Below are positions 9,622 through 13,995 of a stretch of DNA of 38,937 nucleotides, in pieces; position 1 is the first letter of the stretch, and each line of letters opens with the position of its first letter. Location: the IMG/VR virus record IMGVR_UViG_3300045110_000366, positions 1-38,937 of that record; one strand, written 5' to 3'. Both the position numbers and the translations under genes were made by a program. The DNA is from a virus. The notes under the pieces were generated by a model that did not search any database, was not told the DNA's origin, and saw only the letters and a program-made list of their open reading frames with translations.

Positions 9622-9769
9622 CGCGCACTTGGCGCAAAGCCACAACGCGCGAGGCCGGCCCATAAATTCGGGTCCGGGTGGCCCCATTTAGCCCGGCCCG
9701 ATAGGGGTGCGCTGGAACTTGTCAGGAGTCACGGCGCACCCCGACCACCCGCAGAGGAGCGCGAGGCCA
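9622..9769. other. Non-coding gap with inverted repeat
   Basis: No gene is seen. GGGGTGCGC (9704-9712) is the exact complement of GCGCACCCC (9734-9742), with a 21-base loop; upstream are further GGCC-rich short repeats. No T-run follows, so it is not a standard terminator. It could be a structured RNA, a transcript-stability element or part of the replication region. Confidence 0.5.
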
Positions 9770-9856
9770 ATGACCGAGACCCAGGAGCGCGTGGCCGTCG
9801 TGCTGACCATCGTGGCCGCAGCCGTCATCATCGTCCTGATGCTGGTGATGACATGA
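9770..9856 (+). CDS. Tiny membrane peptide, 28 aa
   Basis: MTETQERVAVV then a continuous hydrophobic helix to the end (LTIVAAAVIIVLMLVMT). GAGGAG and GAGG precede the ATG. The stop overlaps the next start (ATGA), which argues that it is translated. Single-pass membrane peptide of unknown function. Confidence 0.6.
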   Translation: MTETQERVAVVLTIVAAAVIIVLMLVMT

Positions 9857-10095
9857 GCCCCGGTGACATCGTGTTCTGGCGCGACGACCGTTTCGGCAAG
9901 CATCGCTTTTGGGAAATCCAGGGAATCTACCTTGGAGCCGAAGGCCAGGAGTCGATTGTTGAACTCAAGAACCTTCTTGAGAAACCAGGACGGGTGTCCG
10001 GCCACACAACGGCTTTTACGCACACGTTCGTGCCGGCGCCGCTGCTGCGGAATCTGGCGATCTACACCCCGGTCGAGGTTGAAAATGCAAACTAA
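9853..10095 (+). CDS. Hypothetical protein, 80 aa
   Basis: Begins MSPGDIVFWRDDRFGKHRFW, with alternating hydrophobic strands, suggesting a small beta-barrel (SH3/KOW-like). The start overlaps the 28-residue membrane peptide and the end overlaps the next zinc-ribbon gene. Function unknown. Confidence 0.65.
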   Translation: MSPGDIVFWRDDRFGKHRFWEIQGIYLGAEGQESIVELKNLLEKPGRVSGHTTAFTHTFVPAPLLRNLAIYTPVEVENAN

Positions 10096-10261
10096 GCGCG
10101 AGTGGTATGAGCGTCACGACTGCACGCATGCCCATTGCCCGCATGACTGCGAGCACCCGCAGCCGATCCTCGACGGCGCCGAACTGCTGTGCCTGCGCTG
10201 TCTGACCTTCGAGGGCCGGCGCACGCCGATGATCCCGTGCACGTCGGAGACATGCACATGA
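10085..10261 (+). CDS. Cys/His-rich zinc-ribbon-like protein, 58 aa
   Basis: GAGG precedes the ATG at 10085. It contains HDCTHAHCPHDCEHPQP and then LLCLRC and PCTSETC: seven Cys and several His in 58 residues, which indicates zinc binding. Related short proteins occur in other Rhizobiales phages (memory). It overlaps the previous gene by 11 bases and the TSCPD gene by ATGA. Confidence 0.7.
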   Translation: MQTKREWYERHDCTHAHCPHDCEHPQPILDGAELLCLRCLTFEGRRTPMIPCTSETCT

Positions 10262-10563
10262 GCCGCCGGACCCTGCCGCAGCGCCGCGCCGCCGAAACCT
10301 TCGAGCTGCGGCACGGCCAGCAGATCGTGACCGTCACCACCGGCTACTACGCCGACGGCAGCCTCGGTGAGGTGTTCTTGAGCGCGCCCAAGGCTGGCAG
10401 CAGCATGGAGGCGATCGCCCGCGACGCTGCGGTGCTTATCAGCATAGCAGTACAACATCATGTGCCACTCCAGATCATGCAAAATGCAGTTACGCGAGAA
10501 ACAAATGGAGCAGCGTCGAGCGTTATTGGTGCCGTTTTAGATCGACTTGTAGAGAGGGAGTAA
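10258..10563 (+). CDS. TSCPD-domain protein, 101 aa (3' end replaced)
   Basis: Matches TSCPD proteins: FELRHGQQIVTVTTGYYADG, SLGEVFLSAPKAGSSMEAIA, RDAAVLISIAVQHHVPL, then a C-terminal segment TRETNGAASSVIGAVLDRL. The domain is otherwise found at the end of B12-dependent ribonucleotide reductases and as single phage proteins; no reductase partner is seen. From about 10432 the codons become AT-rich (ctt atc agc ata gca gta), unlike the first two thirds. A second, GC-rich version of the same C-terminus lies after the HNH gene (11136-11267). So the 3' end was apparently replaced with the HNH cassette. Confidence 0.8.
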   Translation: MSRRTLPQRRAAETFELRHGQQIVTVTTGYYADGSLGEVFLSAPKAGSSMEAIARDAAVLISIAVQHHVPLQIMQNAVTRETNGAASSVIGAVLDRLVERE

Positions 10564-10568
10564 AGCAG

Positions 10569-11135
10569 ATGGGTCTCTTCCAAAATCTAACTGGTCAGAA
10601 ATTCGCGCGACTGACGGTAATAAGCTTAAACCGGACGACAGGTCGCACCGGACCGTATCCGCGCGGGACGTTTTGGAATTGTCGCTGTGATTGCGGTAAT
10701 CCGAGCGTCGTCTTGGCACCTCATTTAAAAAACGGAAATACAAAATCGTGCGGATGTTTATGTGAAGAGATGCGCCCAATTCTGCGCCGTAAGCATGGGC
10801 AGGCAAACAAGACGGCAGAGTATATCACTTGGCTTAATATGAAGGCTCGATGTCTGAATTCACGGTCTGATAATTTTAAATTCTATGGTGGACGAGGGAT
10901 CAAGGTCTGTCAGCGATGGATTGACAGCTTTGAAACGTTTCTTGCTGACGTTGGCTCACGACCTGGACCTGAGCATTCGCTTGATAGATACCCCGATAAC
11001 AACGGGAGCTATCAACCAGGAAATGTGCGATGGGCAACAAAGAAAGAGCAGAGCGACAATCGCCGCAAACGAACAAACTTTCCAATGCGGGATCACGGCC
11101 GATACATCCGCGCGCCAAATCAGTTCTCGGGGTAA
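10569..11135 (+). CDS. HNH homing-type endonuclease, 188 aa
   Basis: A free-standing HNH/AP2-like endonuclease. It has an N-terminal LTGQKFARLTVIS, a CRCDCGN and CGC zinc element (CRCDCGNPSV...TKSCGCLCEE), the core YITWLNMKARC with FYGGRGIKVCQRW, SLDRYPDNNGSYQPGNVRWA (HNH-type metal site) and a C-terminal NRR helix. Its base composition is clearly more AT-rich than the genome. It starts five bases after the TSCPD stop. A relative sits behind the amidase (35633-36154). Both are probably mobile and selfish. Confidence 0.85.
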   Translation: MGLFQNLTGQKFARLTVISLNRTTGRTGPYPRGTFWNCRCDCGNPSVVLAPHLKNGNTKSCGCLCEEMRPILRRKHGQANKTAEYITWLNMKARCLNSRSDNFKFYGGRGIKVCQRWIDSFETFLADVGSRPGPEHSLDRYPDNNGSYQPGNVRWATKKEQSDNRRKRTNFPMRDHGRYIRAPNQFSG

Positions 11136-11267
11136 CCCTTGCGCCACGCGATCACCCGCGAGGAGGACGGCTCGGCCTCGAGCATCATCGGCGCGGTGAT
11201 CGATCGGCTTCAGGCGTCAACGACGCCGTCTTTGACGGCTGGAGCGGATGTTTCACGTGGAAACTGA
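11136..11267 (+). pseudogene. Displaced 3' end of the TSCPD gene
   Basis: Without its own start, the frame reads PLRHAITREEDGSASSIIGA then VIDRLQASTT and stops at 11265-11267. The live gene ends with PL..NAVTRETNGAASSVIG AVLDRL. The two differ at most codons but agree in protein sequence, and this copy has the genome's usual GC-rich codons. It is the original 3' end, left behind when the HNH cassette brought its own version. Confidence 0.75.
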
Positions 11268-11271
11268 GATG

Positions 11272-11541
11272 CTAGAAGAACTTCAGGCTTGCCAGAATTG
11301 CGACGACGGCGGCTGCCATCAGCCCGCCGCGCACGGTCAGGTCGTATTTGAGCGCAGCAATCTCCTGTCGCACGTCGGATCGCAACGCCGCGATGTCGGA
11401 TTTCGTCGCAACGCCCGATCGCAGCGCATCCTCCATCGCATCGGCGTGCGCACGCGCCTGATCGGCGCCAATGCCGGCGCTGGTGAGCCGGTCGACGTAG
11501 CGCAGCCGGTCGAACAATGGGGGCGAGTCGGCGGTGGTCAT
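11272..11541 (-). CDS. DUF1640-like coiled-coil membrane protein, 89 aa
   Basis: Opposite strand to its neighbours. The sequence LFDRLRYVDRLTSAGIGADQ, ARAHADAMEDALRSGVATKSD, a short coiled coil, then GLMAAAVVAILASLKFF (single membrane helix at the end) is the CCDC90/DUF1640 pattern. The role of bacterial DUF1640 proteins is unknown. A lone reverse gene between the early and late blocks is typical of cargo (moron) genes. Its own promoter is not evident. Confidence 0.7.
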   Translation of the reverse strand: MTTADSPPLFDRLRYVDRLTSAGIGADQARAHADAMEDALRSGVATKSDIAALRSDVRQEIAALKYDLTVRGGLMAAAVVAILASLKFF

Positions 11542-11573
11542 GATCGGTACTGTAGCCCCAACAGCACTGCAGG

Positions 11574-11579
11574 TAAAAT
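11574..11579 (+). promoter_or_regulatory. Possible -10 box before the NusG-like gene
   Basis: TAAAAT 12 bases before the ATG at 11592, in the gap between divergent genes. The -35 position (TGTAGC at 11551) is poor, so activation or extended recognition would be needed. A weak call. Confidence 0.25.
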
Positions 11580-11591
11580 AGGGAATTTACT

Positions 11592-12107
11592 ATGACCTAC
11601 TGGGCCATCGCGCAGGTTCAGCCCCAGCGGCTGGCAATCACCGGAACGCTGCTCGATCGTGCGGGGTACGAAATCTACGCGCCCCGCGTCCGCACCCGTC
11701 GCCAAGCAACCGTGCCTGGCGGTCTCTCCTCGCTGCTGTTCCCAGGCTACCTGTTCGTGCACATCACCGACGGCCGGTTCTATCCGGTGCGCTACACGCC
11801 CGGCGTCGTGCGTCTGTTGATGACCGGCGAATGTCCCGCGCGCATGCCGGACCGCGAGATCGACGGCCTGCGACGGCGCGAGGTCAAAGGTTTCATCTGG
11901 CTGCCGCCGCGGGTTCCTCAGATCGGCGCCAGGATGCGGATCATCAGCGGTCCCTTCGCCGGGCACCTCGCCCTGTTCGAGGGCATGGCCGGCGCCGATC
12001 GACTGCGCGTCCTGTTCGATTTTCTGGGCGGCGTGGTGCGGACCGAGCTCCCCTGGCACGCGGTGGAGCCACAAGATGTTGCAATCAACCGTGGTTTGAG
12101 ATACTAG
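11592..12107 (+). CDS. NusG/RfaH-like transcription elongation factor
   Basis: 171 residues with the NGN domain (YWAIAQVQPQRLAITGTLLD, RAGYEIYAPRVR, SLLFPGYLFVHI, YTPGVVRLL) and a C-terminal KOW domain (PPRVPQIGARMRIISGPFAG, LALFEGM, RLRVLFDFLGG, VRTELPWHAVEP). Such specialised NusG paralogues bind RNA polymerase and suppress termination and pausing in a long operon. It is the first rightward gene before the structured leader and the whole structural operon, which fits antitermination of late transcription. AGGGA lies seven bases before the ATG. Length is normal for the family. Confidence 0.85.
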   Translation: MTYWAIAQVQPQRLAITGTLLDRAGYEIYAPRVRTRRQATVPGGLSSLLFPGYLFVHITDGRFYPVRYTPGVVRLLMTGECPARMPDREIDGLRRREVKGFIWLPPRVPQIGARMRIISGPFAGHLALFEGMAGADRLRVLFDFLGGVVRTELPWHAVEPQDVAINRGLRY

Positions 12108-12423
12108 CGGTTTTCCACCCTGCCACGGCAAGCGATTGAATTTGCAAAGGGAAGCCCCAAAAACCGGGCGACCCCAAGTGCAGAGCATTTTCGCAAGCAC
12201 AACGAAATCGGCGCCGAGAGGCCCGTGGCAGGCTGTTTTCCTCGTCGTCGTCGGGTCGTGCCTGTGCTGCCCTGCAGGCACGGCCCGCCCCCACAAACGG
12301 GCTAGGAACGCCGCTGGTGCGTTTCCGGGGAACCGGGGCGTCCGAGAGCCCACCCGCCCAGCAAAACGCACCACGGGCCCCCTGGCGGGCTGGCATCATC
12401 CATAAACCAGAGGAGCCCCACCT
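12108..12423. other. Structured 316-bp leader between NusG-like gene and late genes
   Basis: No gene is seen. CGTGCCTG (12257-12264) and CAGGCACG (12275-12282) form a hairpin stem with a 10-base loop. TGGTGCGTTT (12315-12324) and AAACGCACCA (12364-12373) form a second, wider stem. CCACGGGCCCC and GGCGGGC stretches follow. There is no clean T-run. A regulatory leader or recruitment site for the NusG-like protein is plausible. The last 16 bases hold AGAGGAG, the ribosome site for the next gene. Confidence 0.5.
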
Positions 12424-12978
12424 ATGAGGACGTGGTTACTTGCATTCGCGATTGTTCTGGCCATGCCGGCGTCGGGCAAAGCTGCCACCATCGCCGACCT
12501 CGGCGACAATCCAACCTCGGCCACTGGCCACTTCAGCAACAATGTCGGAGGAACGACGTTCGCCGATCAGTATACGTTCAACCTGACTGGCGCACCGCAA
12601 TTCATCGCCTTCGCGTCGGCGACAAATGACTTCATCTCGCCAGCCGACTTCATCACCTCGTTCACAGGACAGCTCTTCAACTCCGGCCCCAACAACGTAC
12701 CTGGAGGTGGAGACGACTTTGCCGTCAATCCTGCGGTGCTTGCTGTTGCATGCCCGACGAACCCCCTGGGGTGTCAGGTCTTGGCTGGTACGGCCCTGCT
12801 CGATGCCGGTCATTATTTTCTGAACCTGACTGGTACTGGCGGCGGTACGGCTGGCTATGGCGGTGATCTCACCAGCCGTGCCGTGCCAGGGCCAATCGCT
12901 GGTGCAGGATTCCCTGGGCTGGCGATGGCAATCGCGGGCTTGCTGCTCTGGGGGCGACGCCGTCGTCACCCCACGTGA
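12424..12978 (+). CDS. Secreted protein with PEP-CTERM-like sorting tail (second)
   Basis: 184 residues. Signal peptide MRTWLLAFAIVLAMPASGKA, cleavage probably after GKA. The mature domain is beta-rich with many Asn/Thr/Gly and a Cys pair (ACPTNPLGC). The C-terminus has AVPGPIAGAGFPG, a hydrophobic helix (LAMAIAGLLLWG) and RRRRHPT: the same layout and nearly the same Pro motif as the protein at 708-1412. The central part (SNNVGGTTFADQYTFNLTG and later AGHYFLNLTGTGGG) resembles domains of host PEP-CTERM proteins (memory). It is the first gene after the leader, so it is expressed late or as cargo. No exosortase is encoded. Confidence 0.8.
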   Translation: MRTWLLAFAIVLAMPASGKAATIADLGDNPTSATGHFSNNVGGTTFADQYTFNLTGAPQFIAFASATNDFISPADFITSFTGQLFNSGPNNVPGGGDDFAVNPAVLAVACPTNPLGCQVLAGTALLDAGHYFLNLTGTGGGTAGYGGDLTSRAVPGPIAGAGFPGLAMAIAGLLLWGRRRRHPT

Positions 12979-13030
12979 CGGTGTTGGAGTTCACACCAAT
13001 GTCGCAGACCACGGCAGAAGGAGGCAACCC

Positions 13031-13285
13031 ATGTCTCTAACCGGCCTTCTCCTCGGCATCATCAACATCGCAATCGTAATTGCAATTCTGCTGCTGATTG
13101 GCGCGATCATTCTTTGGTTCTGCGGTTGGATGGGCCTCGCTGTGCCAGCGAATGTGCAGAAGGGCTACATCATCGTGGTCGCGCTGATCGGGCTCTACAT
13201 GCTGGTCAGTCTGCTACTCGGCGTGCCGACGCTTCGGATCATCGGTCACACTGACTTGGCGTTGCGGCTCATCGTCAGTGCGTAA
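13031..13285 (+). CDS. Two-pass membrane protein, 84 aa
   Basis: AAGGAGG lies seven bases before the ATG at 13031; the upstream open frame is unsupported. Two hydrophobic helices (LLGIINIAIVIAILLLIGAI and VVALIGLYMLVSLLL) flank a short polar loop with MGLAVPANVQKG. Holin-like in size and topology but far from the endolysin. The end overlaps the HNH gene by eight bases. Function unknown. Confidence 0.7.
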   Translation: MSLTGLLLGIINIAIVIAILLLIGAIILWFCGWMGLAVPANVQKGYIIVVALIGLYMLVSLLLGVPTLRIIGHTDLALRLIVSA

Positions 13286-13604
13286 GCTGGCTCCGTTCAT
13301 CCGCCACACCGTGGATGCACGTGCCGTCAGGCCACAGGCCCATACAGTCGAGCCGTTCTACCTCACGCAAGAGCATCGGGCATGGCGTGAGGCGGTGATC
13401 CGTAATGCACAACGTCGATGTGAAGCTGTCGACAACGGATGGCGGTGCACCAAGGCCGAGCCGCGGCATCGCATGTTCGCTGACCACGTCGTGGAGATCA
13501 GAGATGGTGGCGCCAAGCTCGACCTTGCCAATGGCATGTGCCTTTGCGGCAGCCACCACACCAGCAAGACCATGCGCGCCCGCGCCGAGCGAATGCGACG
13601 ATGA
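13278..13604 (+). CDS. HNH endonuclease of the packaging module
   Basis: 108 residues from GTG. Core: RRCEAVDNGWRCTKAEPRHR, then FADHVVEIRDGGAKLDLANG, MCLCGSHHTSKT. This is the HNH fold (H in the DHVVEI strand, N in LANG, H in GSHH) with two CxxC-type Cys pairs for zinc. HNH proteins directly before terminase, as in HK97-like phages, stimulate TerL cutting. Unlike the two mobile HNH proteins here, its composition matches the genome. Confidence 0.85.
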   Translation: MRKLAPFIRHTVDARAVRPQAHTVEPFYLTQEHRAWREAVIRNAQRRCEAVDNGWRCTKAEPRHRMFADHVVEIRDGGAKLDLANGMCLCGSHHTSKTMRARAERMRR

Positions 13605-13614
13605 GGGGGGGGGG
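13605..13614 (+). repeat. Run of ten G
   Basis: Directly after the HNH stop codon (13602-13604). It is outside any called gene, so slippage would alter only the spacer to the next gene, although it could be a sequencing-length error. Confidence 0.7.
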
Positions 13615-13692
13615 CTAGGAGAAAAATATTTCCGATGGGGGGTGGGAACCGCTCGGGGCTCATGCGTGGATTTTTTGGACTGTGAGGGGAAA

Positions 13693-13995
13693 ATGAAAGA
13701 AAATTCTCCAAAAAAGAAGCTCGGCCGACCGCCAAAAAAGCAACCTGTCGACGATGGCGCCGTAGTTACCGCGGTTGGCATCATGCCGCTTGATTACATG
13801 CTCGCGGTTATTCGTGACCCAAGTTCTGCGCAGTGCCGACGTGATCGGATGGCGATTGCGGCGGCGCCGTACTGTCATCCGCGGGTGGCGGACGCCGTCA
13901 AAGGCAAGAAGGATGCGCAGGCTGAGGCCGTGGTTACGGCGGGTGCCGGCACGGAGTGGGCCGATGATCTCAAGTTTGAAAACCGGGCCAACTGA
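13693..13995 (+). CDS. terS: Terminase small subunit-like protein
   Basis: 100 residues from the ATG at 13693, which has GAGGGG upstream. The open frame extends 5', but that part overlaps the HNH gene and is a shadow. N-terminus MKENSPKKKLGRPPKKQPVD is basic. The central block reads MPLDYMLAVIRDPSSAQCRR, then DRMAIAAAPYCHPRVADAVK, the typical TerS helix-turn-helix-like core in this phage group. It would recognise phage DNA for packaging. It stands between the HNH gene and TerL as expected. Confidence 0.8.
   Translation: MKENSPKKKLGRPPKKQPVDDGAVVTAVGIMPLDYMLAVIRDPSSAQCRRDRMAIAAAPYCHPRVADAVKGKKDAQAEAVVTAGAGTEWADDLKFENRAN

Follow-up and report, generated by a model that had tools for sequence, protein, structure and literature searches.

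The window, a stretch of 38,937 nucleotides corresponding to positions 1 to 38,937 of the IMG/VR virus record IMGVR_UViG_3300045110_000366, carries a TSCPD-like gene, an HNH endonuclease gene and a second, start-less TSCPD end in direct succession. The features of the locus are as follows:

10258..10563, plus strand: hybrid TSCPD-like gene, intact, 101 aa (open reading frame list; Pfam TSCPD, 1.9e-4)
10258..10436, plus strand: native GC-rich 5′ part of the TSCPD gene, corresponding to the left homology arm (identity to the relatives L002, L003 and L004)
10437..10563, plus strand: AT-rich, recoded end of the TSCPD gene, closed by a stop codon of its own (divergence from empty alleles)
10569..11135, plus strand: HNH endonuclease gene, 188 aa (phrog_374, 8.8e-54)
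11137..11210, plus strand: old TSCPD tail, start-less remnant LRHAITREEDGSASSIIGAVIDRL (24 of 24 aa as in L002, 90% nt)
11137..13920, plus strand: right homology arm, collinear with the HNH-less relative L002 (84.6% identity)

In the open reading frame list, five bases separate the TSCPD stop codon from the HNH start, and the old TSCPD end starts one base past the HNH stop codon. The frame behind the HNH gene reads TREEDGSASSIIGAVIDRL and contains neither ATG nor GTG; a TTG is available at 11139. The TSCPD assignment is based on a weak Pfam match (residues 18–73) of 22.1 bits against a curated cut-off of 22.8. The HNH protein is assigned to the HNH endonucleases of phrog_374, carries the HNH domain of this phage homing-type family, and is composed of a zinc-ribbon-like CxCxCG...CGC part and an HNH part. 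Its relatives are up to about 50% identical, and searches with it gave no match in Pfam or among solved structures. A sequence search of the window region against phage DNA gave no match either. Just 3′ of the element lies a NusG-like gene (window 11592–12107; PF02357, 4.9e-11), which is conserved in L002, and a second, unrelated short HNH gene with a weak PF01844 match (0.0031) is found upstream of long open reading frames at window 13278–13604.

Base composition changes abruptly within the TSCPD gene. The GC content is 71% (GC3 93%) over 10258–10434, drops at about 10436, and is 47% (GC3 36%) in the new tail and 49.5% in the HNH gene, while the old tail is again GC-rich (68%; GC3 92%). The new tail and the HNH gene share a common base composition unlike the 61.5% GC of the window. 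The preliminary description of this DNA had noted a TSCPD gene turning AT-rich at its end, an HNH gene after five bases and a start-less old end, and both the reading frames and the GC values bear this out.

Alleles cognate to that of the window but lacking the HNH gene exist in three relatives, L002, L003 and L004, each of which has a single TSCPD gene and no HNH gene of the window's family nearby. On the left side, the window is 91.8% identical to L003 over 9666–10436, the left arm reaching about 9666 against this relative, and 93.6% identical to L002 over 10263–10433; in a fixed register, 26 of 26 bases before the left break are identical in L004. The match to the empty alleles breaks at 10433–10436 and picks up again at 11137–11140, and to the right of the insert collinearity with L002 extends over 11140–13920 (2.8 kb) at 84.6%. 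Between the breakpoints, 38 bp of the empty allele are missing. Since the right side resumes at CCTTGCGCC in the fixed register, the insert ends with TAAC, that is, the HNH stop codon plus one base. Indeed, the alignment proposed in the preliminary description turned out as expected there: the HNH-less relatives align with the 5′ part and with the 3′ remnant of the gene, and not with the AT-rich tail.

The new and old tails are two versions of the same gene end, 62.5% identical over 24 aa (tblastx E 1e-8 to 1e-7). While the old tail is identical to L002 in 24 of 24 aa and 90% of nucleotides, the nucleotide identity of the new tail to L002 is about 59%, and it varies between 40 and 70% per 20 bp against the empty alleles. 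Only 4 of 36 codons of the new tail are unchanged relative to L002 and yet 67% of the residues are kept, which indicates a homologous gene end long diverged in DNA. Against L002 and L003, pS is 0.96–0.98 and pN 0.22–0.27 (pN/pS about 0.2), so the new tail is saturated at synonymous sites, and all residues invariant among nine TSCPD tails are kept in it. The protein encoded by the new tail has thus been under purifying selection. The suggestion that the replaced 3′ end keeps the protein intact therefore stands, given an intact reading frame and the conserved residues. The carrier allele is changed at the presumed target and its flank is co-converted, the tail being recoded with a pS of about 0.96. 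Searches with the whole protein and with the nine-tail alignment, in viral contigs and bacterial genomes, found no donor of the AT-rich tail. This tail is absent from all other TSCPD relatives collected, and among them there is no HNH-less relative with the AT-rich end, which the preliminary description had named as evidence against homing.

We consider it likely that a free-standing HNH homing cassette, associated with neither intron nor intein, was inserted into the last third of the TSCPD gene. The mobile unit would consist of the recoded tail with its stop codon followed by the HNH gene, with the HNH stop codon as its right edge. The HNH protein of a carrier phage would cut the TSCPD tail of a co-infecting phage without the cassette. 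The break would then be repaired from the carrier, left homology being provided by the 5′ part of the gene and right homology by the old tail together with the DNA that follows it. Comparison with the empty alleles shows that the cassette replaces 38 bp of native sequence; the recoded tail restores the C-terminus of the protein, and the native tail persists behind the HNH gene as a remnant. The sequence change in the recoded tail would also remove the DNA target, and the carrier would probably become immune in this way. That cleavage by the HNH protein drives the process is suggested mainly by the wider survey described below. The old end probably serves as homology, as part of the right arm, in the next transfer; its earlier designation as a pseudogene is incomplete with regard to this possible role. 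Homing genes without introns or inteins must spare their target gene, and a carried recoded end would solve both problems, preserving the protein while protecting the site from further cutting. In the present phage, such an end can be set against matched empty alleles.

Furthermore, the arrangement recurs at other HNH genes. Relatives of the HNH gene, representing one HNH family, were gathered from viral contigs, and their flanks were scanned for whether the DNA before and after the HNH gene encodes two versions of one peptide. With wide flanks and E<=1e-4, 9 of the 165 HNH places gave matches, as did 9 of 350 control places picked at random, those in the controls being mostly far apart or crossing stop codons. 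A strict filter (300-bp flanks, no internal stops, E<=1e-5), with similarly sized other genes of these loci as controls, left 8 positives among 166 HNH genes versus none among 465 controls (Fisher p 2e-5, an indicative value because the filter was fixed after the first, looser scan). Chance is excluded, because empty relatives exist and none of the 465 control genes has flanking repeats at E<=1e-5. The positive loci, including weaker or separately found ones, are as follows:

Window: TSCPD tail, strict scan
L091: SMC/RecN-like ATPase tail, strict scan
L104: HerA-like ATPase head, strict scan
L108: head of an unknown gene, strict scan
L111: tail of an unknown gene, strict scan
L146: DNA-ligase-like tail, strict scan
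L196: DUF7484 tail, strict scan
L210: NinB tail, strict scan
L067: match over 12 residues (E 5e-4), the old end directly adjoining the HNH stop, weaker or separately found
L110: HNH frame continuing into the old tail, weaker or separately found
L226, the cultured Xanthomonas phage LucasX: macro-domain gene head, weaker or separately found

With the last three added, 11 different host genes are affected. The old fragment lies 13 nt or less from the HNH stop in 8 of the 11 cases, and new and old copies share 46–71% DNA identity. The host genes of L104 and L108 lie on the opposite strand, and here it is the gene start that has been replaced; the relatives found for L104 are all distant and did not yield a clean empty allele. 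The new fragments of L091 and L146 are not compositionally foreign, so that foreign composition is no general mark of these elements. LucasX is the only positive among 25 HNH loci of cultured phages: in L226:2322–3714 (MW825358.1, about 95789–97181), the old macro-domain head is stranded before the HNH gene, and the intact macro-domain gene with a recoded head begins at the HNH stop. The full HNH reading frame of this phage (255 aa) opens with an ATG 216 bp upstream of the annotated start of the HNH gene, LUCX_96. At L110:1388–1813, the HNH frame continues without a shift into the host gene's old tail and encodes a fusion protein. A terminator-like hairpin, AAGTAGGTC TTCG GACCTACTT followed by a T run, is located between the recoded tail and the HNH gene at L196:2908–2945, and is identical in L196, L234 and L236. 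Two other loci were dropped: L123, which had seemed positive, contains two HNH genes in tandem, and L081 has only a 27-bp DNA repeat.

The end-replacing layout is found around about one in twenty of the related HNH genes sampled, and thus looks like a general route into genes without breaking them. The pattern recurs in host genes unrelated to one another, affects heads as well as tails, and is also seen in a cultured phage. A nuclease gene bracketed by two versions of one gene end is a simple signature, from which one can predict which gene a homing nuclease targets and approximately where it cuts, and which makes homing directly testable.

L234, L235 and L236 were considered as candidate empty alleles for L196 and were rejected, the cassette being present in all three: each has a DUF7484 gene, an HNH gene and an old tail (L234:2733–3876, L235:2733–3876 and L236:2733–3876). 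L234 and L235 are identical through the region, and L236 is a near-identical phage (1584/1600 in the upstream flank, 809/810 in the downstream flank). The tail codings are exchanged between them: L234 and L235 have coding A upstream and B downstream, and L236 has B upstream and A downstream. The upstream tail of L234 matches the downstream tail of L236 at 50 of 51 nt and the other cross pair agrees at 48 of 51, versus 42/51 and 40/51 when tails at the same position are compared between L234 and L236. In these two, the HNH proteins diverge over their first ~155 residues (79–83% nt), whereas the DNA for residues 156–320 is 99.8% identical. To judge from these alignments, two cassettes with opposite target preference may have met at one site and later been homogenised by recombination; or excision and re-integration via the repeated tails could have produced the swap. 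Tentatively, one may imagine a general phage class of end-replacing HNH cassettes with reciprocal versions for each site, one cutting A and carrying B and its partner the reverse, so that gene ends would toggle between near-synonymous codings in an arms race. Such toggling predicts the pattern of L234 and L235 versus L236, with swapped codings, different N-terminal halves and near-identical C-terminal halves of the HNH protein.

Tail duplication is also found without an HNH gene. In L006:2527–3733, from another relative, a complete TSCPD gene is followed by a radical-SAM gene and then by a second TSCPD tail. An assembly artefact is unlikely, because the junction between the radical-SAM gene and the tail is repeated in a second contig (L264:2–790). 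The right junction of L006 is about 7 bp from that of the window, which suggests that this spot of the TSCPD gene has been hit repeatedly. The two tails of L006 share 83% DNA identity (55/66) and are not recoded, resembling ordinary alleles of these phages; compared with the 46–71% of the HNH cases, this value indicates that L006 may differ in origin. It could have arisen by mosaic gene gain, or when other DNA was used to repair a break at this site. In any case, tail duplication alone is no proof of homing. The preliminary description had listed two TSCPD tails without an HNH gene among the findings that would speak against it, and L006 is literally such a case; the homing interpretation is therefore partly supported, its history being borne out by the empty alleles.

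L006 also speaks for ordinary mosaicism. A distant AT-rich phage may already have had the HNH gene beside its TSCPD gene; a homologous crossover within TSCPD to the left of the HNH gene, combined with an illegitimate join to its right, would then yield the locus with the HNH protein uninvolved. Radical-SAM genes are common in phages (79 loci), a comparable duplication surrounds one of them in L006, and the DNA downstream of TSCPD varies among relatives. We regard this explanation as rather unlikely, since it does not account for the enrichment of the arrangement at HNH genes over other genes of the same contigs (8/166 versus 0/465), for the old end adjoining the HNH stop codon in most cases, or for the fact that unrelated host genes are affected at either end. 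A tandem duplication of the TSCPD tail, whose copies diverged and were later separated by an incoming HNH gene, would explain the direct orientation of the two tails and is nevertheless highly improbable: identity to L002 is 90–94% for the 5′ part and the old tail but about 59% for the new tail, which is also compositionally foreign, and such uneven divergence disfavors an internal duplicate. The same course of events would, moreover, have to be assumed for many other HNH genes.

HNH genes of this kind are often located in introns, and the remnant, which follows the HNH gene in the same orientation, might be taken as a second exon of a gene split by a group I intron or as the C-terminal host part of an intein-containing gene. 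However, no Rfam match at gathering scores, and hence no group I core structure, was found in the window or in 11 other loci, the only hit in the element being a chance snoRNA match (E 0.095). Joining 10436 to 11137 loses 38 nt and shifts the frame relative to the empty allele, so there is no uninterrupted exon sequence. For an intein, a continuous frame through the insert to the C-terminal host part would be expected, but the host frame is closed by a stop at 10563, ahead of the HNH gene, which begins at 10569. Group I intron and intein were accordingly rejected, and we give them hardly any credence. The free-standing homing cassette remains the preferred reading.

Intron-less homing by free-standing endonucleases is known from T4-like phages (reviewed in PMC2988022); their genes lie beside the presumed target and are transferred with flanking sequence into nuclease-less relatives, like the window element. 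Term searches in this review gave no mention of nuclease genes flanked by duplicated, recoded gene ends, nor did those in a phage nuclease-boundary paper and a recent lactococcal HNH survey. The nearest phage case is the ShiLan element, an HNH insertion in mycobacteriophage DNA methylases (Arsenault et al., 2025; PMC11855218). As in the window, the insertion involves neither intron nor intein, and both inserts end with TAAC. The first 11 residues of the ShiLan insert resemble the 11 after the insertion site (65.7–67.8% nt), a repeat not interpreted in the text consulted as a recoded gene end. In ShiLan, the host frame is open through the whole insert with the HNH gene out of frame inside; in the window, unlike ShiLan, it does not run through the insert, and the recoded piece reaches the gene's own stop, so that a complete host protein is encoded next to a separate HNH gene. 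The open-access literature searched holds no phage description beyond this partly similar element, and earlier reports may exist.

The closest parallel is found in fungal mitochondria, where mobile endonuclease ORFs (mORFs) with carboxy-terminal replacement have been described in Glomus atp6, atp9, cox2, and nad3 (Beaudet et al., 2013; PMC3630166), as well as in Allomyces macrogynus atp6 (cited in PMC3630166). In these genes, like in the window, an endonuclease ORF lies near the 3′ end of the gene, a foreign C-terminus is fused in frame, and the native C-terminus is found downstream and is nearer to relatives than the inserted one (PMC3630166). The window has both the in-frame inserted C-terminus and the native one downstream of the endonuclease ORF, with nucleotide identities to L002 of 90% for the old tail and 59% for the new one. 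The fungal mORFs encode LAGLIDADG or GIY-YIG endonucleases and are mitochondrial, while the window and the survey concern HNH endonucleases of bacteriophages, in which gene heads are replaced as well as tails, unlike in the fungal mORFs. The window element works like a fungal mORF without being a member of that group, and phage elements are in this way linked with the fungal mitochondrial ones.
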